A stretch of DNA of 14,586 nucleotides, taken from assembly GCA_934358235.1 (NCBI GenBank), contig CAKRKK010000045.1:1-14586 (forward strand), in the 5' to 3' direction. The position numbers and the translations under genes are program-made. The stretch comes from an uncultured Lachnospira sp. (GTDB taxonomy: Bacteria > Bacillota > Clostridia > Lachnospirales > Lachnospiraceae). Under the pieces are notes generated by a model. The model made no database searches. It was not told the DNA's origin and saw only the letters and a program-made list of their open reading frames with translations. Positions 1 to 14,586 of the stretch are shown here, piece after piece (position 1 is the first letter of the stretch; every line of letters begins with the position of its first letter).

Positions 1-741
1 GCCTGAAAGTAGTGCAGGTATACCAAGAACTGTTGGTGAACCTCCGGCTATTGCATCGTTATAATAAGTGAAATCCTCGAATTCTTTTTTATATTTATCC
101 TCGGATAATATTTCACTTTCAAACCATTCTGCATCAAGAGTATCTATAACAAACATAATTGTGTTATTCTTAGACGACAACTCGAATTCGCCGTTCTTAG
201 TAACAGCAAAATCGTTTGAAATTTCCTTATGTGTAGTAAGCAAAAGAACAATTAATGATACAAGCTGCATAGCTGTTACAAAGTAGCTTCCCCACTTTGC
301 AATGAGCTCCATTATATTCTTTTTTAATACATATATAACCTGTGGTACAACAAAGCATAATATCCACCCAATTATACTTATAATGCCATTCACCTTATAA
401 TTGCTCCAGTTAATTTCCTTACCGTTGAGTGAATTAAAAGCAGGATTAAGGAAATTACCCTGAATATAAAAGCCTAACGCAAGACCAAATACAAGTAAAA
501 CATATGAATCAAACAATCTTGCATTTAATAGTATTGCACCAATTATATATACTACAAATGCGATAGCAGCCGATGCAAGTAAAAGCAATGAAACTATCTT
601 AGAATAATCAAGTGAAAAATCATCTATGTTGCCAAGAAATAGCGAACTTGGCATATAAATTCCAAATGTAAATATTAAAAATAATGTAGGAGGCAGTAAT
701 CGTAAAGCCTTTTCCTTTATTGTGTATCGTTTTTTATCCAT
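1..741 (-). CDS. LtaS-like membrane phospho-transferase/phosphodiesterase, alkaline phosphatase (sulfatase) superfamily, paralog 2 (partial, C-terminus outside window)
   Basis: The frame is open for 247 codons from the ATG at 741 to the window start, so the catalytic domain is cut. The N-terminus holds about five hydrophobic segments (near residues 15-36, 48-72, 80-95, 118-139, 152-170). An extracellular domain then starts with a strand ending in a metal-ligand-type Asp (FVID, D200) and a nucleophile-loop-like GGSPTVLGIP around S235. The layout matches the full-length gene upstream on the same strand, including NGxxxxW and an IQGN patch, so the two are tandem paralogs. By family (LtaS, EptA, membrane sulfatases) such enzymes move or cleave phosphoglycerol or phosphoethanolamine-type groups outside the membrane. 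Where the neighbour has Thr, this protein has Ser. The ATG overlaps the upstream gene's end by 8 nt, suggesting translational coupling. Membership in the superfamily is fairly sure; the substrate is unknown. Confidence 0.8.
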   Translation of the reverse strand, partial: MDKKRYTIKEKALRLLPPTLFLIFTFGIYMPSSLFLGNIDDFSLDYSKIVSLLLLASAAIAFVVYIIGAILLNARLFDSYVLLVFGLALGFYIQGNFLNPAFNSLNGKEINWSNYKVNGIISIIGWILCFVVPQVIYVLKKNIMELIAKWGSYFVTAMQLVSLIVLLLTTHKEISNDFAVTKNGEFELSSKNNTIMFVIDTLDAEWFESEILSEDKYKKEFEDFTYYNDAIAGGSPTVLGIPALLSG

Positions 742-2851
742 TATAATCAATTACCCTGCTTTCTATAAAATCATCATCTATATAATTAATTGTCATAGTT
801 TTTAAAGCAATTCCTAATGTTCTATGGTCAGTTTCAAAGCTTAATGCATCAGGTAGTTCCAACTTTATATCTAGATTTTGTGAATTTTTCATATGCTCCA
901 TTGTAATCTTAAATATTAGTTCATTACTATCCATTGCATACCAATTAAGGAACTCTCCATTCACAGAAACACCCACTCTTTGAACATCACCTATTATTAT
1001 GTTGCTTTTTATCTTTACATATATATCTGATGTAACTATTTCAGATAAAGGAATATCAAACTCTACTTCGTGCCCATCTGTCCATGTATGCTCATCTTCA
1101 TTTTTACTCAAACCTTTAATCGCATACGCATTACCCGAAGCTTCTATACCAAAGCTTAATTCTTCACCAATACTATATTGTGGTGTTTCTCCATCATCTG
1201 TAGATTTAAAAATATCAAAAGTTCTACCTGTTTGGATAACTTCTTCGTTTTTACCAACAGTTCCTGTTATTTTATATTCTATTGCCTTATTCTGAGCAGT
1301 TTCCTGAAAATAAAAATATCTTTCAGCATTATCATCCATTGTAAGTTCCCAGATACTCTTAACACCCGTATTATTATTTCCTATAGCAGCAAGGATAGTT
1401 GGCTGAAGATTATCATACGAAACAGGCAGCTCACTGATTGTATAATTATTAGTTTCCATTCCTTTTTTTACCATAAACAATGGATTATATTCCACCCCAC
1501 CTTCACCATGATCCGAACATATAATAATAGTCGAATTATCATATATTCCTAAATCTTTCATCTGTTTAAAGTATTCATTAAGAATTGTCATTACTCCCTG
1601 CTGTTGTTCTTCAAAACTTGTGTCTGATCCATCTGAAGTTGCGTCACTTTTTAAAGTATACGATGGATGAGCCCCTTTAAGATGATATAATCTAAATGCA
1701 TTTTTATCATTTCTTAACACCAACCCATCTTCTTTAAGATTCTTATAGAAAGCAGCATCATTTATTGTATAGCTTGCCTCATCTGACTTATTATCTTCTG
1801 CTGCTTCATCAAAATCACCAGAATACATCCATACATATTTTTTCAATATATGTGGAAAATACTTACATGCTGTAAACTTGTACATACAATAATTAAGTTT
1901 ATTATAATCCGCAACCTTCTTCTCACCCGTATACAGATTATCTATATTTACTTTAATAGAAGATGGAGCAAATGTACTCTCTGTATATATTCTTGTATCG
2001 TAATTACTTTTTTCTAAATTATCATATAAAACAGTACTATTATAAGACTCATTAAGATAAGTAAGATAAGTCTTTTCATCTATATATGGTTTGCCTGTTA
2101 ATATATGAGGCAATGCCAATACCGTTCTTGTACTTCCCCCTACCGTGTTAGGATAATAAGTAAATTCAGTAAAAAGCTCGTTTTTATACTCAGAATGTTC
2201 TTCTATAAATTTATTAAATTCTTTTGAATCATAACAATCAAGAATAAACACACATACATTATTTTCAGATGAAACTGTATATTTACCTTCATTAGTAAAT
2301 ATTCTATCACTATTATTCAAAGTCTTAGGCTTTACATTTGAAAATAATACAATTAATGTAACAACCTGAATAGCAACTATCCATAACGAACCCGCCATAT
2401 TAATCACCCGCGAAATTTTTGGTTTAATTGCGGTAATTATTAATGGAATTATTATACATGCAATCCACAAAACTGTATTCCATATAGAAACAGTTTTATA
2501 TGCACTCCAATCAACTGTTTCCCCATTAAGCGTTCCATAATTAGTTGTTATATAATTTCCCTGAATATATAAAGCTAATGAAACACCAAACACAAAGCTG
2601 CTAATCCATCTTGAAATAATCTCTGGTAATATCAACATTATAATTGATAATACTGCAAAAAGCAAAATCGTATATTTCACACAAGAACCTTTAATATCTG
2701 AAAAATCAAAATAAAATTCAGATGCATTCGTCAGATACAACTGCACAGGTCCAAAAAAGCCTATCATAAAACTAAGGAAAAGAGCTGCTGGAACGCAACT
2801 CTTTAACTTATTAATCATATTTTCTTTAAATTTAATTTTATTAAATCTCAT
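734..2851 (-). CDS. LtaS-like integral membrane enzyme of the alkaline phosphatase/sulfatase superfamily, paralog 1 (complete, 705 aa)
   Basis: Hydrophobic segments lie near residues 20-40, 58-77, 82-97, 120-143 and 152-171, followed by an extracellular catalytic domain. Visible motifs are a metal-site Asp (FILD, D205), a nucleophile loop GGSTRTVLALP with T241 where EptA-type enzymes place their Thr, a His-rich YHLKGAHPSY (H390, H395), the family-typical LGIYDNSTIII, and the metal pair SDHGEGG (D447, H448). After about residue 520 a beta-rich tail resembles a jelly-roll or carbohydrate-binding fold, longer than in LtaS. By family it acts outside the membrane on phosphoglycerol or similar groups, so polymer synthesis, decoration or cleavage are all possible. 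It starts 5 nt after the small membrane protein stop, with only a weak AG-rich site, so it probably relies on coupled translation. The ATG at 2851 precedes the first membrane span. Family assignment is confident; the reaction is not. Confidence 0.85.
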   Translation of the reverse strand: MRFNKIKFKENMINKLKSCVPAALFLSFMIGFFGPVQLYLTNASEFYFDFSDIKGSCVKYTILLFAVLSIIMLILPEIISRWISSFVFGVSLALYIQGNYITTNYGTLNGETVDWSAYKTVSIWNTVLWIACIIIPLIITAIKPKISRVINMAGSLWIVAIQVVTLIVLFSNVKPKTLNNSDRIFTNEGKYTVSSENNVCVFILDCYDSKEFNKFIEEHSEYKNELFTEFTYYPNTVGGSTRTVLALPHILTGKPYIDEKTYLTYLNESYNSTVLYDNLEKSNYDTRIYTESTFAPSSIKVNIDNLYTGEKKVADYNKLNYCMYKFTACKYFPHILKKYVWMYSGDFDEAAEDNKSDEASYTINDAAFYKNLKEDGLVLRNDKNAFRLYHLKGAHPSYTLKSDATSDGSDTSFEEQQQGVMTILNEYFKQMKDLGIYDNSTIIICSDHGEGGVEYNPLFMVKKGMETNNYTISELPVSYDNLQPTILAAIGNNNTGVKSIWELTMDDNAERYFYFQETAQNKAIEYKITGTVGKNEEVIQTGRTFDIFKSTDDGETPQYSIGEELSFGIEASGNAYAIKGLSKNEDEHTWTDGHEVEFDIPLSEIVTSDIYVKIKSNIIIGDVQRVGVSVNGEFLNWYAMDSNELIFKITMEHMKNSQNLDIKLELPDALSFETDHRTLGIALKTMTINYIDDDFIESRVIDYNG

Positions 2852-2856
2852 AATGA

Positions 2857-3087
2857 TTACTTTTCATCAGAAGCTGTTGTGTTAATAACAATATCATCAC
2901 TTTCAACTTCCTTGTTCCTGTTCTCATCGATACCGAGCTTGTCGCTCATCTTCTTTTTTGCCTTTCTCCAGTAAATACCTGCTACTGCTCCAATAGCAAT
3001 AACAACACCTGCTATTGCCTGGATAGCATAAGTCATAACTGAAGGGTCAAGATATCCGCCTACTGTTAAAGTTCCCATTGTAATCAT
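2857..3087 (-). CDS. Small single-span membrane protein of unknown function (76 aa) in the YidC-glycerophosphotransferase operon
   Basis: I do not recognise a named family. The protein has a short, uncharged N-terminus with one Asp (GGYLDPSVM), one membrane span at about residues 17-40 rich in Ala, Gly, Ile and Val, then a strongly basic stretch (WRKAKKK) and a charged, acidic tail of about 30 residues. By the positive-inside rule this predicts N-out, C-in topology, the layout of small YidC-dependent proteins. It sits between the YidC fusion gene and the two LtaS-like genes. Its ribosome site is the best in the operon (AAGGAGG, 9 nt before the ATG), suggesting a higher dose than its neighbours. 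It could be an assembly subunit, a scaffold tying the inner glycerophosphotransferase to the outer enzymes, or a regulatory subunit. These roles are inferred from context only; that it is a real gene is well supported. Confidence 0.8.
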   Translation of the reverse strand: MITMGTLTVGGYLDPSVMTYAIQAIAGVVIAIGAVAGIYWRKAKKKMSDKLGIDENRNKEVESDDIVINTTASDEK

Positions 3088-3145: not shown

Positions 3146-5254
3146 TTATTTAGCTTCCTTAGCTTCTTTTATCTTTCTGACAACGGCATTGATTATATAA
3201 TCGCCACCTACCTTGGCACTATTACCAAGATTATATACATATTCGTGTACGAACTCATCAATCTGTCTGCTGTAAGCTTCTGAATTATTAAACATATCTT
3301 CAACAACACCAGCAACCTTATCCATCTCATCAGGATTAACAGACTTGCCTATACTGTGTCTCATCCAGATATTAATAGGTTCTACACCAATCTTTTCATA
3401 TTCTGGATTCATAACCTTCATTGGTGTATTAATAAATAATACCGGCTTACATGTTGTATATGCATATTCATAGGCAATACCTGACCAGTCAGTAATCATC
3501 ATATCAGCTTCAAATACTGTGCTGTTAGAAGAAAAATCAGTCTGAATCTCAATATCATCATTATCTGCAAATTTCTCCTTAAGCTGTTCCATGCGCTCAG
3601 GCATATGTCTTACGTGCTGTGGATGAGGTCTTACTGTTACCTTATATCCGTGTCCCTTAAGATTATCCAGAAGTTCATCAAGACAGCTATCTACGATATT
3701 ATCCTTCTGCCATGATGGTGCAATAAGAATCGACTTCTTAGCTGATGGATTCTTCTTAACAGACTTATAATCCTCTCTCATGGAATCTAACAGGCAATAA
3801 CCCCAGTCAACGATATTCTTCTTAGGAAGTCCATAAACCTCTTCAGTCTTTTCAATCTCTTCTCTTTGATGCTTTCCTGTACAGAATACTGTATCAAAGT
3901 GATCCATAGAGCCTGTCCTCATAGTCATATTTAAGCTGTCCATGCCATGTGGAACATATATATACTCAATATTTTTTCTTATGTAGCTTCTCTTAATGTG
4001 ATAATTCTCAAGATCCGGCATAGTCATAACAACAATATCTGCATCCATCTTCATCATAAGAGTAATAAGCTTCTTCTCGCCTATATAATATGCCTTAATC
4101 TTGTCATTCTTTTCAGCCTTTTCAAATATAGAATCATCAGGATCGCTTGTCACATAATGAATAGTAATATTTGTATTCTTAAGTATGTATTCAATCATAC
4201 CTGCATAATACTTATAGAAACCATTATTCTCCGAATAAAATACAAGATGCTTATTAACTATTGAGAAAAACCTCTTATAATCAGCTCTTTCCCTCTTAGC
4301 ATAAGGATTCTTCTGAAACAGCTTCTGCTTACCTGCACTACCGCCAATACCTTCAAGTGCTGCAAGCTCCTTCTTACTTTCCTCTAAATCCTCATAATCA
4401 ACATAATGCTTTGGATTAATAGCCCAGTTAAGAAGATATAGCTGTATAATAGCAAATATATTACTAGCTATCCAATAAAGTGCAACACCGGCTGGAACAA
4501 ACCATCCAAGATATAATGAAAGACCAACTGAAAGCACCATCATACCGTATTTATTGAGCTTTGACTGTTCAGCCTGTAATACATTACTTGCATTCTGTGC
4601 CACGCATAAAAGCCAGGCTGAAAAACCTGCAATAACAGGTACAATAATATCAATACCACCTATCTGTGATGGCACCCAGCTAAGATTGATTCCGACAAAG
4701 CTCATATTAAGTGACTTTATAGCATCTATTGTAGCAGCAACATCCATATCAGGAAACTGCGTCTGTAAGGCTGCAAGCTGTGCTGCAAATGTTCCGTTCT
4801 TAATATTCTCAACTACAATAAGCTGTATTGATGAAGATTCTGGATCTGCACCAAGCATTGAAACAGCCATTCCATTAAGTGTATTAATAAAATCCTGTGG
4901 AAGATGTAACAGATAATCAAGTGGATGATAAATAACCGCTACAAGTCCTAACAAAAGTACAATCTGTACGATAAGTGGAATAAGTGATGCCAAAGGATTA
5001 TATTTCTCCTGCTTAAACAGCTTTGACTGTTCATCTGCTATTGCATCCTTATCTCCAAAATGCTTAGCTTTAATTCTGTTTATGTCAGGCTGCATCTTTA
5101 CCATCTTAATAGAATTCTTCTGAACCCATATAGATACTGGCAGCAATACAAACTTGCTTATCAAAGTAAACAGAATAATAGCTATTCCATAGTTACTTAC
5201 CAGCTTATAGCAGAATGCCATAACATATCCTAAAGCACTGGATAATATATTCAT
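3146..5254 (-). CDS. YidC/Oxa1 membrane insertase fused to a CDP-glycerol glycerophosphotransferase (TagB/TagF-like) domain
   Basis: Residues are numbered from the ATG at 5254 (702 aa). Residues 1-275 form a YidC/Oxa1 insertase core: spans near 20-42, 89-109, 202-221, 237-255 and 256-275, a cytoplasmic amphipathic hairpin after the first span (KMQPDINRIKAKH), and an outside loop of about 90 residues between spans 2 and 3. The groove Arg of YidC is replaced by Lys (ISKFVLLP, K34). After a linker (about 280-335) comes a cytoplasmic GT-B-type glycerophosphotransferase domain with PHGMD (435-439), APSWQKDN (512-519), RPHPQ (542-546), DWSG (589-592) and KPVLFINTP (603-611). Such domains move glycerol-phosphate from CDP-glycerol onto a lipid-linked acceptor. 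A TTG at 5347 extends the frame but lies about 11 nt from the likely transcript start with no ribosome site, whereas AAGAGG sits 6 nt before the 5254 ATG. No N-terminal lipobox is seen. It is the first gene of the operon. Confidence 0.88.
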   Translation of the reverse strand: MNILSSALGYVMAFCYKLVSNYGIAIILFTLISKFVLLPVSIWVQKNSIKMVKMQPDINRIKAKHFGDKDAIADEQSKLFKQEKYNPLASLIPLIVQIVLLLGLVAVIYHPLDYLLHLPQDFINTLNGMAVSMLGADPESSSIQLIVVENIKNGTFAAQLAALQTQFPDMDVAATIDAIKSLNMSFVGINLSWVPSQIGGIDIIVPVIAGFSAWLLCVAQNASNVLQAEQSKLNKYGMMVLSVGLSLYLGWFVPAGVALYWIASNIFAIIQLYLLNWAINPKHYVDYEDLEESKKELAALEGIGGSAGKQKLFQKNPYAKRERADYKRFFSIVNKHLVFYSENNGFYKYYAGMIEYILKNTNITIHYVTSDPDDSIFEKAEKNDKIKAYYIGEKKLITLMMKMDADIVVMTMPDLENYHIKRSYIRKNIEYIYVPHGMDSLNMTMRTGSMDHFDTVFCTGKHQREEIEKTEEVYGLPKKNIVDWGYCLLDSMREDYKSVKKNPSAKKSILIAPSWQKDNIVDSCLDELLDNLKGHGYKVTVRPHPQHVRHMPERMEQLKEKFADNDDIEIQTDFSSNSTVFEADMMITDWSGIAYEYAYTTCKPVLFINTPMKVMNPEYEKIGVEPINIWMRHSIGKSVNPDEMDKVAGVVEDMFNNSEAYSRQIDEFVHEYVYNLGNSAKVGGDYIINAVVRKIKEAKEAK

Positions 5255-5553: not shown

Positions 5554-6843
5554 TTACTTTTCTAATCTGTTCTGACTTATATTCTTTATCTCATTGACAA
5601 GCTCATTAGATACATTGACAATTTTATCTGTTGAATTCTTACATCCTGCCATAACCTGCTCAAGATTATTCATATTGTCCCTTGTAGTTCTTCCGCTTTC
5701 TGAATTCTGCTTGGCAAAATCTGCGAGATTATCAACGCCACCGGCAATAGTATTCTTATGTGTTTCAAGCTCATCAACCTCATTAGCAATACCACCTATT
5801 GCCATACCTACTCTGTTAATCTCAGAATTAAGAGTTACAAATATAGCCTCTGTATCTTTAATCTTTGCATCCTGCTTCTCAAATGCTTCTGATACTATCC
5901 TTGCTGTTTCAACACTTATATTGGAATTATCTATAAGTCCATTTACTATCTGGTTTATATGTTCAGTTGACTCTCTTGACTGGTCTGCTAACTCCCTTAT
6001 CTGTTCTGCAACTACTGCAAAGCCTCTTCCATTCTCACCAGCTCTTGCAGCCTCTATGCTTGCATTAAGAGCAAGAAGATTAGTCTGGTTAGATATTCCT
6101 GCAATAATCTCTGTAACCTTTCTTATCTCCTGTGCTGATGCATTAGTGCGTTCTGTTTCCATGCCAACCTTTTCCATAGCCTGTCCACTTTCTTCACTAA
6201 TAGTAATAAGCTCCTTCATAATATCGGCTGCCCTGTCATTACACTCTGTGACAGTATCTATGCTTTCCTTAAGTCCTTCTATGTTGATATGTATATTGTC
6301 AACAGACTTGCTTATTGCATCCGTCTTAACCCTAATATCTTCCACCTTATCTGCCTGAATCACAGTATTATCCGTTATTATATCTACTGCTGAATTAGTA
6401 CCATCAACTACCTTCTGCATAGAATTAAACATATCTACGAATTCCTGTGAAACCTGTTCAAGCTCAACCGTAGCTTTTCTTATTGCCGCAATTGTAGCTG
6501 TAAAACCACCAAAGGTATTTTGCACATTACGGACCATCTCTCCAATGTCATCATTTCTTGCTGACAGCTTTTCTAACTTCTCATCTATCTTTGTATTCTC
6601 TTTATCTTCACTAGAAACACCTGTTATAGCTGCCCTTATCGGTACAATTATCGTTCTTATTATGTTAATAAGCATTAAAAGAACAATTCCAAATACTACA
6701 AGCATAAGCACAAATGCCGGTATTACTCCGATAATATTATTTTTTAATAAAACAAATATAACTATCATAGCAATAAAGACTGGTAAACTTAATGCAACTG
6801 CTGTCATTATAAGCTTCCTAGCAACATTAGTTTTTTCTTTCAT
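5554..6843 (-). CDS. Methyl-accepting chemotaxis protein with HAMP and no large extracellular sensor (429 aa)
   Basis: Two membrane spans (about residues 11-34 and 39-63) are separated by only a few residues (KNN), so there is no periplasmic-type ligand domain. A HAMP-like segment follows (about 63-115, starting IVPIR and ending with [11 protein letters not shown]), then a long coiled coil. The signalling tip near 246-290 carries the hallmark [17 protein letters not shown] and [12 protein letters not shown] runs. It would couple CheA/CheW to an internal or membrane-linked signal rather than an external ligand. The start is the ATG at 6843: GGAGGAG lies a few nt before it, whereas an earlier in-frame ATG (6855) overlaps that ribosome site. 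It lies downstream of the GGDEF-EAL gene, may be partly co-transcribed with it, and also has its own promoter. It ends before a clear terminator. Family assignment is very sure; the signal sensed is unknown. Confidence 0.95.
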
Positions 6844-6880
6844 AAACTCCTCCATTTCCGTACAATCTGTACAACAACAT

Positions 6881-6908
6881 ATTATATATCACAATGATAA
6901 TCATTCAA
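6881..6908 (-). promoter_or_regulatory. Promoter of the MCP gene
   Basis: On the minus strand, -35 TTGAAT (6903-6908) and a perfect -10 TATAAT (6881-6886) are 16 nt apart. The -35 overlaps the stop of the upstream GGDEF-EAL gene, so this is an intergenic/internal promoter. The predicted start near 6874 gives a leader of about 31 nt ending in GGAGGAG before the ATG at 6843. Confidence 0.65.
6893..6905. promoter_or_regulatory. Candidate operator: 13-bp Fur-like palindrome between -35 and -10 of the MCP promoter
   Basis: AATGATAATCATT is a perfect 6-1-6 palindrome equal to the central 13 bases of the classical 19-bp Fur box, though the flanks do not match. It overlaps the end of the -35 and the spacer, where a repressor would block polymerase. 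Perfect 13-bp odd palindromes are expected a few times by chance in 14 kb of AT-rich DNA, so only the position supports it. Confidence 0.35.
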
Positions 6909-8586
6909 TATATAGTTCATTAAAATATTCTGCGGGATATGCCTTACCAAAAAGATATCCCTGTATACAATCAGCACCAAGCCTTCTTAATGCCCTTAAA
7001 TCCTCTGAGGTTTCAATACCCTCTATACACAGCTTTAATCCAAGACTATGTGCCATATTTATAATATAAGTCATAAGTTCATAGTCATAATGATTCTTCA
7101 ACGCTTTTAATGTGAAGGAACGGTCTATCTTTATATAATCCGGCTTTAAATCGCTTAAGCAATGCAGATTGGAATATCCAGTACCAAAATCATCCAAAAG
7201 AACATATACACCATTATTCTTTAGCTGTTCCCATAAATATTTAAAATGTGTGCTTGAATCCAGATATCCGCTTTCTGTAAGTTCAATTCCTATACACGAA
7301 GGATTCAGGGAATACTTTTGTATAGCTGTCATTATATCTGACAGCACATCACTCTTCATAACCTGTATATATGATACATTGACATTTATTCTGAAGTCCT
7401 CTACCTTTTTGCACCATATACTACATTGTTTTGCTGACTGCTCAAGTATCCATCTGCCAGCCGGAATAATAAGTCCGGATTCTTCCAGCAATGGAATAAA
7501 CTCTACTGGTGAAATATACTCTCTTTCGTCTGAATTCTCCTTTTTCATTGAAAAACGCATAAGTGCTTCAGCCCCCATAAGCATATAAGTACCTGCATCT
7601 ACTACCGGCTGATAAAACACCTCAAAGCCATCAAAATCATTATTGACCGCATTATGGAGTGCCTTACTTATAACTCTTTTTCTTTTAAACCTTTTATATT
7701 CTTCTTCATTATATATGTAGTAGTTATTTCTGCCATTATCTTTAGCTGTTTTGATGGCATATTCTGATGCCTTTATATAATCCTCGACCTTAGTGCCTAT
7801 ATGCTTAGTATCAATAATACCTGCTGACAAGGTAAATATTACTTCATATTTATTATCTTCTATAAACCTTGTTATAAGCCTTTTACAGTTCATATATATA
7901 TCAACAGCAGATTGTATATCTCCGCCATTAAAATCCACTACTATGAATTCATCCACACCAACCTTAAACACGCTTTGTTGCTCGTTAATGCAGGAATGTA
8001 TACACTCAGCTACCTTTTTTAATATAAAGTCTCCATAAGCTGTACCAGCATTAGCATTGATAAGGCTGAAATTATCTATGCCAATTCTTAATATAAAGCC
8101 CTTTGGAATAGTCTTACCACAGCATTCCCTGACATAATCAGTAAGTGCCTGCTCTCCTAATAGTCCGCTTATATTATCAGCCTCTGGCTTTTCACCTATT
8201 TCATTGATACAGCCAACCAGATAATGTGGAATTAAATCATCATCATAAAGCACCGTGCCCCTGCAGTTAATCCATACAGGCTCAGAATTCTTATCAAGCC
8301 ATCTGTACTTCATATTATGAAATTCTTTCTTTCCCTCTTTTATCTGCCTGATTTCTGCTTGTAACAATGGCATATCCTGTGGATATACGAATATCTCATG
8401 CCCTCTGGCTGCATCATAGAACTTATCCGATGGCAGCAGGAATCTTTCTGTAGCATGTTCAGAAATCACATAATAATCCTCTTTTAAATCATATACATAA
8501 AGATAGTCATTCATACAAGGATTCAATATTCTTATAGCTTCTTCTATTTGTTTCTTTGACATATTTATTAAACTATTACGCATCAT
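6901..8586 (-). CDS. PAS-GGDEF-EAL protein, probable c-di-GMP phosphodiesterase (561 aa)
   Basis: Residues are numbered from the ATG at 8586. A PAS-like domain (about 25-133) precedes a GGDEF domain (about 140-292) and a C-terminal EAL domain (about 305-561). The EAL signature residues are all visible: QPVVD and GAEALMR (E340), NVS (N403), ELTES (E435), DDFGTGYS (D465, D466), IKIDRSF (K486), EGIET (E522) and QGYLFGKA (Q542). Hydrolysis of c-di-GMP to pGpG is therefore likely. The GGDEF motif reads GVDEF (210-214), which probably abolishes or weakens synthesis; such domains often bind GTP and tune the EAL domain. No membrane span is seen, so it is cytoplasmic. An in-frame ATG at 8643 lies too close to the predicted transcript start and has no ribosome site, while AAAGGA sits 6 nt before 8586. 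An ATG at 8583 is almost equally possible. An MCP gene follows. Confidence 0.9.
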   Translation of the reverse strand: MMRNSLINMSKKQIEEAIRILNPCMNDYLYVYDLKEDYYVISEHATERFLLPSDKFYDAARGHEIFVYPQDMPLLQAEIRQIKEGKKEFHNMKYRWLDKNSEPVWINCRGTVLYDDDLIPHYLVGCINEIGEKPEADNISGLLGEQALTDYVRECCGKTIPKGFILRIGIDNFSLINANAGTAYGDFILKKVAECIHSCINEQQSVFKVGVDEFIVVDFNGGDIQSAVDIYMNCKRLITRFIEDNKYEVIFTLSAGIIDTKHIGTKVEDYIKASEYAIKTAKDNGRNNYYIYNEEEYKRFKRKRVISKALHNAVNNDFDGFEVFYQPVVDAGTYMLMGAEALMRFSMKKENSDEREYISPVEFIPLLEESGLIIPAGRWILEQSAKQCSIWCKKVEDFRINVNVSYIQVMKSDVLSDIMTAIQKYSLNPSCIGIELTESGYLDSSTHFKYLWEQLKNNGVYVLLDDFGTGYSNLHCLSDLKPDYIKIDRSFTLKALKNHYDYELMTYIINMAHSLGLKLCIEGIETSEDLRALRRLGADCIQGYLFGKAYPAEYFNELYIE

Positions 8587-8659
8587 GCCTGTTCCTTTCA
8601 TAATAAAACAACAAAGTATTTTATTTATGTCCCCTTCAAACATTCATCTAATATCTAAT

Positions 8660-8688
8660 AAGATACCTTTTTGTCAAATAAATGTCAA
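8660..8688 (-). promoter_or_regulatory. Promoter for the PAS-GGDEF-EAL gene, with tandem TTGACA repeat
   Basis: On the minus strand, a consensus -35 TTGACA (8683-8688) and -10 TATCTT (8660-8665) are 17 nt apart. A second TTGACA (8672-8677) lies 11 bp away as part of a tandem TGTCAAATA repeat on the plus strand, so an overlapping alternative promoter shifted by 11 bp is possible. The predicted start near 8653 gives a leader of about 67 nt to the ATG at 8586. Confidence 0.55.
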
Positions 8689-8693
8689 ATATT

Positions 8694-8739
8694 AGTTGGC
8701 TTTTCACATAATATAAGTTGGTTTTTTATTAATTATGTG
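8694..8739. repeat. Direct and inverted repeats in the divergent promoter region
   Basis: AGTTGGCTTTT (8694-8704) and AGTTGGTTTTT (8716-8726) are near-identical direct repeats 22 bp apart, about two helical turns. A perfect 8-bp inverted repeat, CACATAAT (8705-8712) and ATTATGTG (8732-8739), flanks the -35 of the plus-strand promoter and reaches into its spacer. Either could be a binding site for a regulator of one or both divergent genes. No known regulator is matched. Confidence 0.35.
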
Positions 8740-8746
8740 CTATCAT
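8718..8746 (+). promoter_or_regulatory. Promoter for the Cys-rich PAS / degenerate GGDEF gene
   Basis: -35 TTGGTT (8718-8723) and -10 TATCAT (8741-8746) are 17 nt apart on the plus strand. The predicted start near 8753 gives a short leader carrying AAGGTGGGG before the ATG at 8778. The promoter is divergent from that of the c-di-GMP phosphodiesterase gene. Confidence 0.5.
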
Positions 8747-8777
8747 TTAAACAATTACAAAAGGTGGGGAACGGATT

Positions 8778-9671
8778 ATGGATAATATAATTAATAACAA
8801 TAGTAATATACAATCATATTCAACTGAAGAAATAACAGCCGAGATGAATGTGCTATCACATTCCTTTGATGTAGTAAGACTGGTTAATCCTTGGGAGTGT
8901 AATATTGTTAAAGCTGTTAAAGAAGCACCAGATAATACAGATAATTGCTTTGATGTATGGAATGTTCCATATCAGTGTGTCAACTGTACCTCTGCAAGAG
9001 CCTTACTGACCGGGCATACTCAGTCCAAGCTTGATACGACCTGTGATGATATATTTCAGATAACATCCCGTCCTGTTAATGTTGACGGCAAACCTCTTGT
9101 ACTTGAAATCGCAAAGCATTTTTCTTACACCTATAACAGATATGATTCTGTCTCCCAAAGAAAGAAGCTCATCAATGCAATAAGGGCTCTCAATCACGAT
9201 CTATTGCTGGATAAGGAAACTGATGCCTTTAACCGTGATTATATGGCTGAACACTTTCCTAACATTTTCCATACTGCACAGCAGATTCATCGGACTAATG
9301 CTGCACTTATTCACATACAGCATCTGTATGATATAACACAAAATGAAGGTTCTATGGCAGCCTCAGGCATGATATGCAGTCTTTATTCATTATTAAAGCA
9401 AACCTTCTTAGATGAAACAGATGTAGGACTTTTGTATATAAGATATAGTCCCGACACCTTCCTGGTGTTTGAAAACAATCTTGATTATGAAAGCTTTAAT
9501 AAAAGGATTAATCTTCTTCAGCTAGAGGCAGCACCTAAGCATCTGCTGTTTAACAACAAAAGACTGCCCTTCGATATTTCTATTGCCTGTGCAGACCTTG
9601 CTAATGAAGACATAAACAGCCTTGATGAACTACTAGGTATTTTAAAGACGCGCCTTGAAAACAGCTTGTAA
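8778..9671 (+). CDS. Cys-rich PAS-like domain joined to a degenerate GGDEF domain (297 aa), probable non-catalytic signalling protein
   Basis: The N-terminal half (about residues 25-118) looks like a PAS domain with three clustered Cys in a C-x9-C-x2-C pattern (C57, C67, C70, around FDVWNVPYQCVNC), plus C89. I associate this Cys-cluster PAS with Lachnospiraceae diguanylate cyclase-like proteins; it could bind a metal or report redox state. The C-terminal half (about 138-297) follows the GGDEF fold outline: DKETDAFNR replaces D-x-LTGLxNR, and YSPDTF (223-228) sits where YGGDEF should be. Both the substrate loop and the metal Asp/Glu are lost, so diguanylate cyclase activity is unlikely. No membrane span is present. 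A ribosome site (AAGGTGG) lies about 10 nt before the ATG. It is divergent from the phosphodiesterase gene, so it may bind or regulate that enzyme, though this is inference. Confidence 0.75.
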   Translation: MDNIINNNSNIQSYSTEEITAEMNVLSHSFDVVRLVNPWECNIVKAVKEAPDNTDNCFDVWNVPYQCVNCTSARALLTGHTQSKLDTTCDDIFQITSRPVNVDGKPLVLEIAKHFSYTYNRYDSVSQRKKLINAIRALNHDLLLDKETDAFNRDYMAEHFPNIFHTAQQIHRTNAALIHIQHLYDITQNEGSMAASGMICSLYSLLKQTFLDETDVGLLYIRYSPDTFLVFENNLDYESFNKRINLLQLEAAPKHLLFNNKRLPFDISIACADLANEDINSLDELLGILKTRLENSL

Positions 9672-13750: not shown

Positions 13751-14161
13751 TTAAATTATATGAAGCTCTTCCTTTTCAGATATATTCCCCTCTATATGAA
13801 ACGAATTAAGCACCGGTTCATCTGCATTCATAAGAGAAAGTATCATATAACTAGCTTTACTATCATATGCAAGCCTTTTATCCTCCTTAGATGGTCTTGA
13901 AGGAGATTCAGGGTGCGAATGCCAGTTGCCAAGAGGTACAAGTCCGTTAGCTCTCATATCCTTGACTGCTGCAAGCTGCTCCTTAGGATCCATTGAAAAA
14001 TGCTCATTGGAATGGTCAATATTAGTTAAAAGATATACCTTTCTGATATGCTTATTACCATCCTCTACTGTTCCACCTATAAGGCCACAGGCTTCTTCTG
14101 GAAGATTAGTCTTAGCATATTCAAGGATTTTATCATAATCAGTTTTATTAAATGTAATCAC
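13751..14161 (-). CDS. JAMM/MPN+ metallopeptidase, Mec-like, probable sulfur-carrier protein processing enzyme (136 aa)
   Basis: A complete zinc-peptidase JAMM signature is present: H-x-H-x7-S-x2-D as HSHP...SKED (H81, H83, S91, D94), with the upstream Glu in LPEEACGLIGG (E22/E23). The length fits stand-alone bacterial JAB proteins of the Mec/RadC-related MPN group. In Mycobacterium, Mec cleaves cysteine from the thiocarboxylated carrier CysO; similar pairs with ThiF/MoeB E1 enzymes occur widely. Here the E1-like gene lies just upstream with a 45-nt gap, so the pair probably works together on a ThiS/MoaD-like carrier, whose gene is not in the window. The start codon is GTG at 14161, supported by GGAGGA about 9 nt before it; no ATG fits. 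The protein has no signal peptide and should be cytoplasmic. Peptidase family is very sure, pathway is inferred. Confidence 0.9.
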   Translation of the reverse strand: MITFNKTDYDKILEYAKTNLPEEACGLIGGTVEDGNKHIRKVYLLTNIDHSNEHFSMDPKEQLAAVKDMRANGLVPLGNWHSHPESPSRPSKEDKRLAYDSKASYMILSLMNADEPVLNSFHIEGNISEKEELHII

Positions 14162-14206
14162 CTTTTAAGTCCTCCTGATTTCCTTTTAATGTCACAGACT
14201 ATAGAT

Positions 14207-14586
14207 TTAGTGGTCTTCACAGACTGCCTGTTCATAGTCTATAAGCTCTGTAATAGTTGGGTTCTTACCACATACCGCACAGCCATCTGTATTAGAAGGA
14301 AGCTTAATCTTATGGAATTCCTGTGTTATGGCATCATAGGTAAGAAGATAACCTGTGAGCAGCTCTCCTACTCCAAGAATATACTTGATAGCCTCCATAG
14401 CCTGAAGACTTCCTATGACACCACCCATAGCTCCAATAACACCAGCCTGCTTACAGGTTGGAACTGCATCCTTTGGTGGTGGATTCTTGAATACACATCT
14501 GTAGCATGGACCTTCTCCAGGAACATAGGTCATAAGCTGTCCCTTAAACCTGATAATACCAGCGTGTGAAAAAGGCTTCTTAGCCA
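14207..14586 (-). CDS. ThiF/MoeB/HesA-family E1-like adenylyltransferase (partial, N-terminus outside window)
   Basis: The frame runs off the window end; the visible C-terminal 126 residues begin AKKPFSHAGIIRFKGQL. The first zinc Cys pair is in PGEGPCYRC and the second in CAVCG, as in MoeB and ThiF. Between them, PTCKQAGVIGAMGG holds the Cys at the place of the E1 family's catalytic or persulfide-carrying Cys, followed by GSLQAMEAIKYILG of the dimer helix. The ATP-binding GxGG part lies outside the window. Such enzymes adenylate the C-terminal Gly-Gly of a ThiS/MoaD/CysO-like carrier so that sulfur can be loaded. The neighbouring JAMM peptidase downstream suggests a cysteine- or sulfide-forming role rather than thiamine or molybdopterin alone. 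It probably heads the unit ThiF-JAMM. A type II CBASS Cap2 is a less likely alternative. Superfamily is sure, the exact role less so. Confidence 0.88.
   Translation of the reverse strand, partial: AKKPFSHAGIIRFKGQLMTYVPGEGPCYRCVFKNPPPKDAVPTCKQAGVIGAMGGVIGSLQAMEAIKYILGVGELLTGYLLTYDAITQEFHKIKLPSNTDGCAVCGKNPTITELIDYEQAVCEDH

Follow-up and report, generated by a model that had tools for sequence, protein, structure and literature searches.

What would a YidC-type membrane insertase do in the same polypeptide as a glycerophosphotransferase? The question is raised by a stretch of 14,586 nucleotides from an uncultured Lachnospira sp. (assembly GCA_934358235.1, contig CAKRKK010000045.1), the whole of which is referred to here as the window. 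Positions 3146..5254 of its minus strand encode a fusion protein of 702 aa (F), in which a YidC/Oxa1 core is followed by a TagF-like (PF04464) domain (Gly). The core occupies residues 22-276 (4427..5191, minus strand) and comprises five membrane spans in the structural model; between spans 2 and 3 lies an insertion (residues 111-198; 4661..4924, minus strand), presumably located outside, whose length varies among relatives. A charged linker (residues 287-331; 4262..4396, minus strand), which includes the region of lowest model confidence (304-311), leads to the Gly domain (residues 332-697; 3164..4261, minus strand). The pTM of the F model is 0.61, which makes the mutual placement of the domains uncertain.

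The original prediction took this reading frame to be one genuine polypeptide with an intact YidC core, and on both counts it was right. All 120 F homologues among the matches listed contain the YidC as well as the PF04464 domain, and this recurrence in homologues and at other loci rules out an assembly error or a frameshift as the origin of the fusion. The five-span core fold is present, and among 84 aligned F proteins K34, Q97, N224, N265, H436, R542, H544, D589, W590 and S591 are invariant, while Q220 is kept in 81. Lys34 (5153..5155, minus strand) occupies the groove position of span 1.

Judged by gene content, F is a YidC paralogue and not the housekeeping YidC, since 18 of the 20 fusion-bearing genomes possess one or more further YidC frames of 314-529 aa, so that F is not their only insertase-type gene. 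G010 and G017, in which no separate gene of YidC size was found, may both be incomplete MAGs. Full F is rare across species: of 150 genomes drawn from the family to which G001 belongs, five have it, among them G001; in another of the five, G155, the match contains a stop codon. The charged groove residue of span 1 is only weakly diagnostic: it is Lys in 84/84 F proteins, and the separate YidCs (L081-L101; position readable in 11 of 18) have Asn in four cases, Tyr in three, Lys in two and Arg in two. The groove arginine is thus often absent from the separate YidC of these gut Firmicutes. A change from Arg to Lys was considered as a mark of lost insertase function and dropped, because the separate YidCs of the same genomes vary at this position.

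Within PF04464, the Gly domain sits on a branch that has diverged from the rest: with the family profile the fusions reach 39-61 bits, compared with 144-300 bits for the 12 highest-scoring other members, which come from seven of the 17 fusion-bearing genomes searched. Profile comparison with these 12 ordinary proteins gave a probability of 99.1 over 323 columns and paired PHGMD with WHG, RPHPQ with R-HHQ or HP, and ITDWSGIAYEY with ITDYSAIAFDY. His436 of F (PHGMD; 3947..3949), His544 (RPHPQ; 3623..3625) and Asp589 (DWSG; 3488..3490), all on the minus strand and present in 84/84 proteins, hence align with the WHG histidine, the second family histidine and the D of TDYS, respectively. When the domain sequence was compared with solved structures no match was obtained at E 1; its top structure match is TagF, both histidines of which are named catalytic in the available text of PMC5974469. 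Since the fold, the two family histidines and the TDxS motif are all in place and the PF04464 bit scores are low, Gly looks like an active yet divergent transferase. Strong matches to it (E below 1e-30), whether or not YidC is present, occur in six of 398 genomes of the phylum of G001, two of them already known; the same search also gave weaker matches (E above 1e-30) and one at a contig edge in G481.

In the window, F is followed on the same strand by T, S1 and S2, the last being cut at position 1; the original prediction had overlooked these partners. T (2857..3087, minus strand) is a single-span protein of 76 aa, preceded by GGAGG ahead of its ATG, and consists of a short N-tail with YLDPSVMTYAIQ, the predicted span and a basic tail. 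It has 2889 homologues at E 1e-3, the few source names given being "hypothetical", and Y[ILV]DP is found in 45/45 free T proteins. The N-terminus is variable across loci L001-L080: in some it resembles a signal peptide ending in A before YIDP, in the window, L028 and L023 it amounts to a few residues, and the remainder of the protein is very similar. A classification of T as a holin was rejected, as the match to PF23987 reaches 17.8 bits, below the 27-bit cut-off.

S1 (734..2851, minus strand; 705 aa) is composed of N-terminal helices, an alkaline-phosphatase/sulfatase-superfamily domain (Pfam Sulfatase, E 1.2e-7) and a C-terminal beta domain. The model (pLDDT 89.1) contains five long N-terminal helices, of which hydropathy picks four. 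Its structure matches include PbgA (6xlp), EptA (5fgn) and MCR-1, and those of the enzyme domain alone include sulfatases, YejM/PbgA and phosphonate monoester hydrolases. S1 therefore has the N-terminal spans and alkaline-phosphatase-fold domain that are features of envelope phosphotransferases. At the sequence level, the three matches to solved structures (E 0.08-0.94) are not meaningful. LtaS is a membrane enzyme of the alkaline-phosphatase superfamily; it is not among the structure matches listed for S, which excludes nothing. D205, D447 and H448 are invariant in 55 aligned rows and Thr243 (2123..2125, minus strand) is conserved in at least 90% of them; by analogy to LtaS and EptA, we take the threonine to be the candidate nucleophile and the other residues to be putative metal ligands. 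S2 (1..741, minus strand), readable over 247 aa, is a second protein of this type (phmmer E 1.9e-41 to S1), and the fragment has no Pfam match.

The rest of the window holds genes of other kinds. An MCP-type gene (5554-6855) stands between F and a pair at 6901-9671, which consists of a PAS-GGDEF-EAL gene on the minus strand and a divergent plus-strand gene whose GGDEF-like match is just under the Pfam cut-off. At 13751-14533 a Prok-JAB gene adjoins a frame that corresponds to the C-terminal portion of ThiF (positions 151-237 of the 238 in the profile). Promoter-like sites were no more frequent than in shuffled sequences (20 found, 29.1 expected), and four terminator-like sites were found against 1.4 expected.

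The association of F with T and S is not peculiar to the window. It was followed in 78 loci with full F (81 minus L017, L024 and L073, which have none), each extending up to 9 kb on either side of F and many cut by contig ends. A six-frame profile search detected T anywhere in the locus in 73 of them (60 by ORF calling). Among the five loci in which T was missed, L021 and L075 stop less than 0.5 kb downstream of F, and L077, perhaps a real miss, is truncated immediately upstream of it; L039 and L054, with no contig end downstream, are real ones. S is present in 61 of the 78 loci and absent from 17 within these stretches; it also occurs in 2/18 control stretches around separate YidC genes.

Moreover, the parts are fused in several permutations. 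Apart from YidC-Gly itself, T and S share one frame in 16 loci, and S-YidC-Gly is found in P0108, L007, L061 and L062. A second class came to light in a search of genomes with F: here Gly has an N-terminal YIDPGTGS span of its own (nine of ten readable free Gly genes: L111-L116 and L210-L212, with L209 lacking it; L117, whose Gly gene was not recovered by ORF calling, is left out) and YidC is joined to S. Such a YidC-S gene adjoins the second-class Gly at L111-L114, where its YidC part is confirmed by Pfam; its S part exceeds the Sulfatase cut-off at L111 and L114 and is recognised by our own profile only at L112 and L113. YidC-S homologues account for 6109 of 7999 scored candidates at E 1e-3, and the 120 matches listed (P0121-P0240) all contain PF02096, 87 of them with PF00884 as well. 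Groove residue 34, Lys in F, is Asn in 5/5 YidC-S proteins examined. The fusion at L114:7840-10626 is about 920 aa long, the source name, where given, being YidC/Oxa1 insertase, and the second-class Gly at L111:6535-8700 (721 aa) has an extra C-terminal part with a further hydrophobic stretch. The YIDPGTGS span and T gave a weak hhalign probability of 23, so that their relatedness is only suggestive.

That parts join repeatedly in different orders is strong evidence, at the level of gene architecture, for one conserved four-part module of Gly, T, S and the YidC fold. The original prediction had named separate genes for the two domains in relatives as an observation that would refute it. Such a split does exist in the second class, but YidC is there joined to S; together with L209, which has a Gly domain alone and no YidC fold, this points to domain shuffling and not to an artefact.

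What the module works on is suggested by its neighbours. Among loci of at least 15 kb, a CTP-type nucleotidyltransferase was found in 35/50, compared with 1/20 random stretches and 0/18 separate-YidC stretches (Fisher p 4e-7 and 8e-8, respectively), PEP mutase in 14/50 compared with 0/38 controls (p 1.5e-4), and a CobD-like part in 21/50 compared with 1/20 and 0/18. The control stretches were of 20 kb (4.8 kb only for the separate-YidC stretch L185), the random ones coming from four fusion-bearing genomes. Since the profiles were built from F neighbours, it is the controls that carry the claim, and the loci are related and not independent. A nucleotidyltransferase match is located no more than 16 kb from F in 17 of 20 genomes; G005 and G009 carry theirs on a different contig, and G019 gave no match.

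The neighbours fall into different sets. Representative ones exceed the NCBIfam cut-offs for PEP mutase (TIGR02320), phosphonopyruvate decarboxylase (Ppd, TIGR03297) and 2-aminoethylphosphonate aminotransferase (PhnW/AepZ, TIGR03301), and MobA/LicC-type nucleotidyltransferases accompany them. All four phosphonate genes are near F at L008, L022, L037, L039 and L050, and the set is also found at L209, L211, L212 and the G004 locus L215/L216. At L050, which is from Roseburia inulinivorans DSM 16841, the order is F, T and the aminoethylphosphonate genes. The simplest arrangement is that of L209, where the complete aminoethylphosphonate set is followed by Gly alone and then by two sulfatase-family proteins. 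Most other F loci have a different nucleotidyltransferase gene, or none was found, 15 of the 50 long loci being without a detected one. The neighbour, where there is one, is either a 600-aa fusion of a nucleotidyltransferase with a CobD-like PLP enzyme or else a protein resembling LicC, sometimes accompanied by a BCCT transporter; these sets would supply CDP-ethanolamine or CDP-choline. The LicC/PntC-like nucleotidyltransferase-CobD-like fusion (L004:2131-3942, L114:4769-6574 and 13 others) may make CDP-ethanolamine from phosphoserine; the L004 copy is under the cut-off of all 25 NCBIfam families listed. PEP mutase (six genomes) and the full-length fusion (nine) do not overlap among the 20 genomes (chance 0.012).

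The window, cut inside S2, has no CTP-activation gene among its larger ORFs. In G004, a closer relative, F is followed by T and three S genes and, some 11 kb further on, by PntC-like, PhnW, PEP mutase and Ppd genes, and in G001 the activation set is likewise about 11 kb from F. L004, the closest by identity (74%) of the loci examined, has the CobD-like fusion directly after F. Since relatives thus differ, the gene context does not point to one particular head group for the window itself. As a class, the CTP-activated head group is well supported by gene context as the likely donor.

F could well be the core of a membrane machine, made up of the YidC fold, Gly, T and S, that places small phosphorus-containing head groups on the cell surface, a proposal that we are about equally inclined to accept and to doubt. 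As we infer them, the donor and its lipid-linked intermediate, the direction, the last acceptor and the part played by the YidC fold would fit together as follows. In the cytosol, Gly would take a head group activated with CTP (CMP-2-aminoethylphosphonate in certain lineages, in others probably CDP-ethanolamine or CDP-choline) and transfer it, at the inner face, to an acceptor lipid of the membrane. The head group would then cross by way of the YidC fold, which has a polar groove in the membrane, and at the outer face S, as a threonine-type transferase of the alkaline-phosphatase superfamily, would move it onto a glycan. T would be a small subunit, nearly always present. A lipid-linked intermediate would be an economical way to cross, because an S-type enzyme presumably needs its donor outside and CMP and CDP compounds are cytosolic. 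Against the proposal weigh the long loci with no activation gene detected, its absence from the larger ORFs of the window, the missing YidC fold at L209, the loci lacking T or S, the S matches in two control stretches, the weak resemblance of T to the YIDPGTGS span and the Asn at groove residue 34 of YidC-S.

According to the available text of PMC10491306, E. coli YidC scrambles lipids once reconstituted in liposomes, and all Oxa1-family members tested scrambled lipids in simulation; a review echoes this (PMC7618853, available text). Given this activity, and with one class tying it to Gly and the other to S, the YidC fold is best read as a passage. The original prediction had offered the fold as a conduit or anchor for lipid or polymer; we favour the conduit, for an envelope enzyme, and set the polymer aside. 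Tentatively, the YidC/Oxa1 fold would thus have been recruited from protein insertion as the lipid-crossing channel of an assembly line, united in some species in one polypeptide (S-YidC-Gly), with Gly loading the lipid and S transferring to the glycan; this fuller version seems to us doubtful, if conceivable.

Alternatively, the YidC domain of F could be a dedicated insertase with T (or S) as its client, coupling decoration synthesis to the assembly of its own subunit; with T as client, the coupling to membrane-protein insertion put forward in the original prediction might still hold. Its polar groove residues are invariant, in 39/78 loci the gene immediately after F is a free T, with a 4-base overlap in 19 of those, and the window T has the short N-tail, single span and basic tail of Sec-independent YidC clients. 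We nevertheless consider this unlikely, since T has a signal-peptide-like N-terminus in many loci and, being fused to S, or to Gly if the YIDPGTGS span is T, acts like a subunit in addition to any role as client; furthermore, a separate YidC-size gene exists in 18/20 genomes.

It is similarly improbable that the YidC part is a mere membrane anchor or scaffold that sets Gly beside S, lipids crossing elsewhere. That the domains are freely swapped, and that at L209 YidC is missing beside Gly and S-like genes, would agree with such a role, but a five-span fold with polar residues in or near its spans (K34, Q97 and N265 in 84/84, Q220 in 81/84) exceeds the needs of an anchor. Nor is YidC needed for anchoring, as a single span of its own suffices for second-class Gly and S has its own helices.

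The synthesis of a glycerophosphate polymer, as put forward in the original prediction, found no support. A lipoteichoic-acid-like glycerophosphate chain would fit the Pfam name, the TagF structure match with both histidines kept, and the resemblance of S to membrane transferases of EptA/PbgA layout. However, Gly is a divergent subfamily, the typed neighbour genes provide amino head groups in CTP-activated form (aminoethylphosphonate, elsewhere probably phosphoethanolamine or phosphocholine), and among the neighbours typed a candidate cytidylyltransferase of glycerol type turned up at a single locus, L112, so that we regard this reading as very unlikely. That F is no more than the cell's own YidC carrying an extra domain is scarcely credible, despite its complete YidC core and the few source names for its homologues, which say YidC, in view of the separate YidC-size gene in 18/20 genomes and the presence of full F in only 5/150 sampled family genomes.

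The reading of F as part of a head-group transfer machine matters for several reasons. Rice et al. 2019, in the available text, call the steps from aminoethylphosphonate to the decorated surface unknown (PMC6697681), and the module provides concrete candidates for these transfer steps. The main text of that paper, as available, names LicD once and mentions neither YidC, insertase nor glycerophosphotransferase, and the open-access literature searched yielded nothing on the fusion, the module or the phosphonate link. If the channel reading is true, it would provide the missing transfer step of bacterial phosphonate tailoring and, as far as we know, the first case of a YidC-type protein with a physiological role in lipid transport. 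The in-vitro scrambling of lipids by insertases would become testable in cells, where donor enzyme, passage and outer transferase are one S-YidC-Gly chain. YidC-Gly and YidC-S each have thousands of homologues among the scored candidates, named YidC/Oxa1 insertase if at all, which are probably envelope enzymes. Finally, if gut commensals display aminoethylphosphonate, phosphoethanolamine or phosphocholine on their surface, this would be relevant to host recognition and phage binding.

Surface decoration via an activated head group is a known kind of process, and the machine itself is, as far as searched, undescribed. F differs from the YidC/Oxa1/Alb3 insertases (PF02096) in that its YidC fold is joined to Gly or S, within envelope loci, beside a separate YidC-size gene (18/20). 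With the TagF/TarL polyol-phosphate transferases (PF04464), Gly has in common the fold, both family histidines and the TDxS motif; it differs as a divergent subfamily with a membrane-spanning partner in the same chain and aminoethylphosphonate or aminoalcohol gene neighbours. S shares the N-terminal spans and alkaline-phosphatase fold of PbgA/YejM, EptA and MCR-1, with its conserved D-T-DH set, but occurs fused to T or YidC and, in the window, has an extra beta domain. The Dlt and Gtr/Arn lipid-carrier systems use an inner-face donor, membrane passage, an outer-face transferase and a small membrane peptide (DltX); the F module would follow the same logic, but its proteins are not known from these systems and membership is not claimed. 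The Lic (phosphocholine) and Pnt (aminoethylphosphonate) tailoring systems have, like the F loci, CTP activation of a head group beside a transferase (PMC6697681, available text), but at the F loci examined the candidate transferase is Gly plus S.
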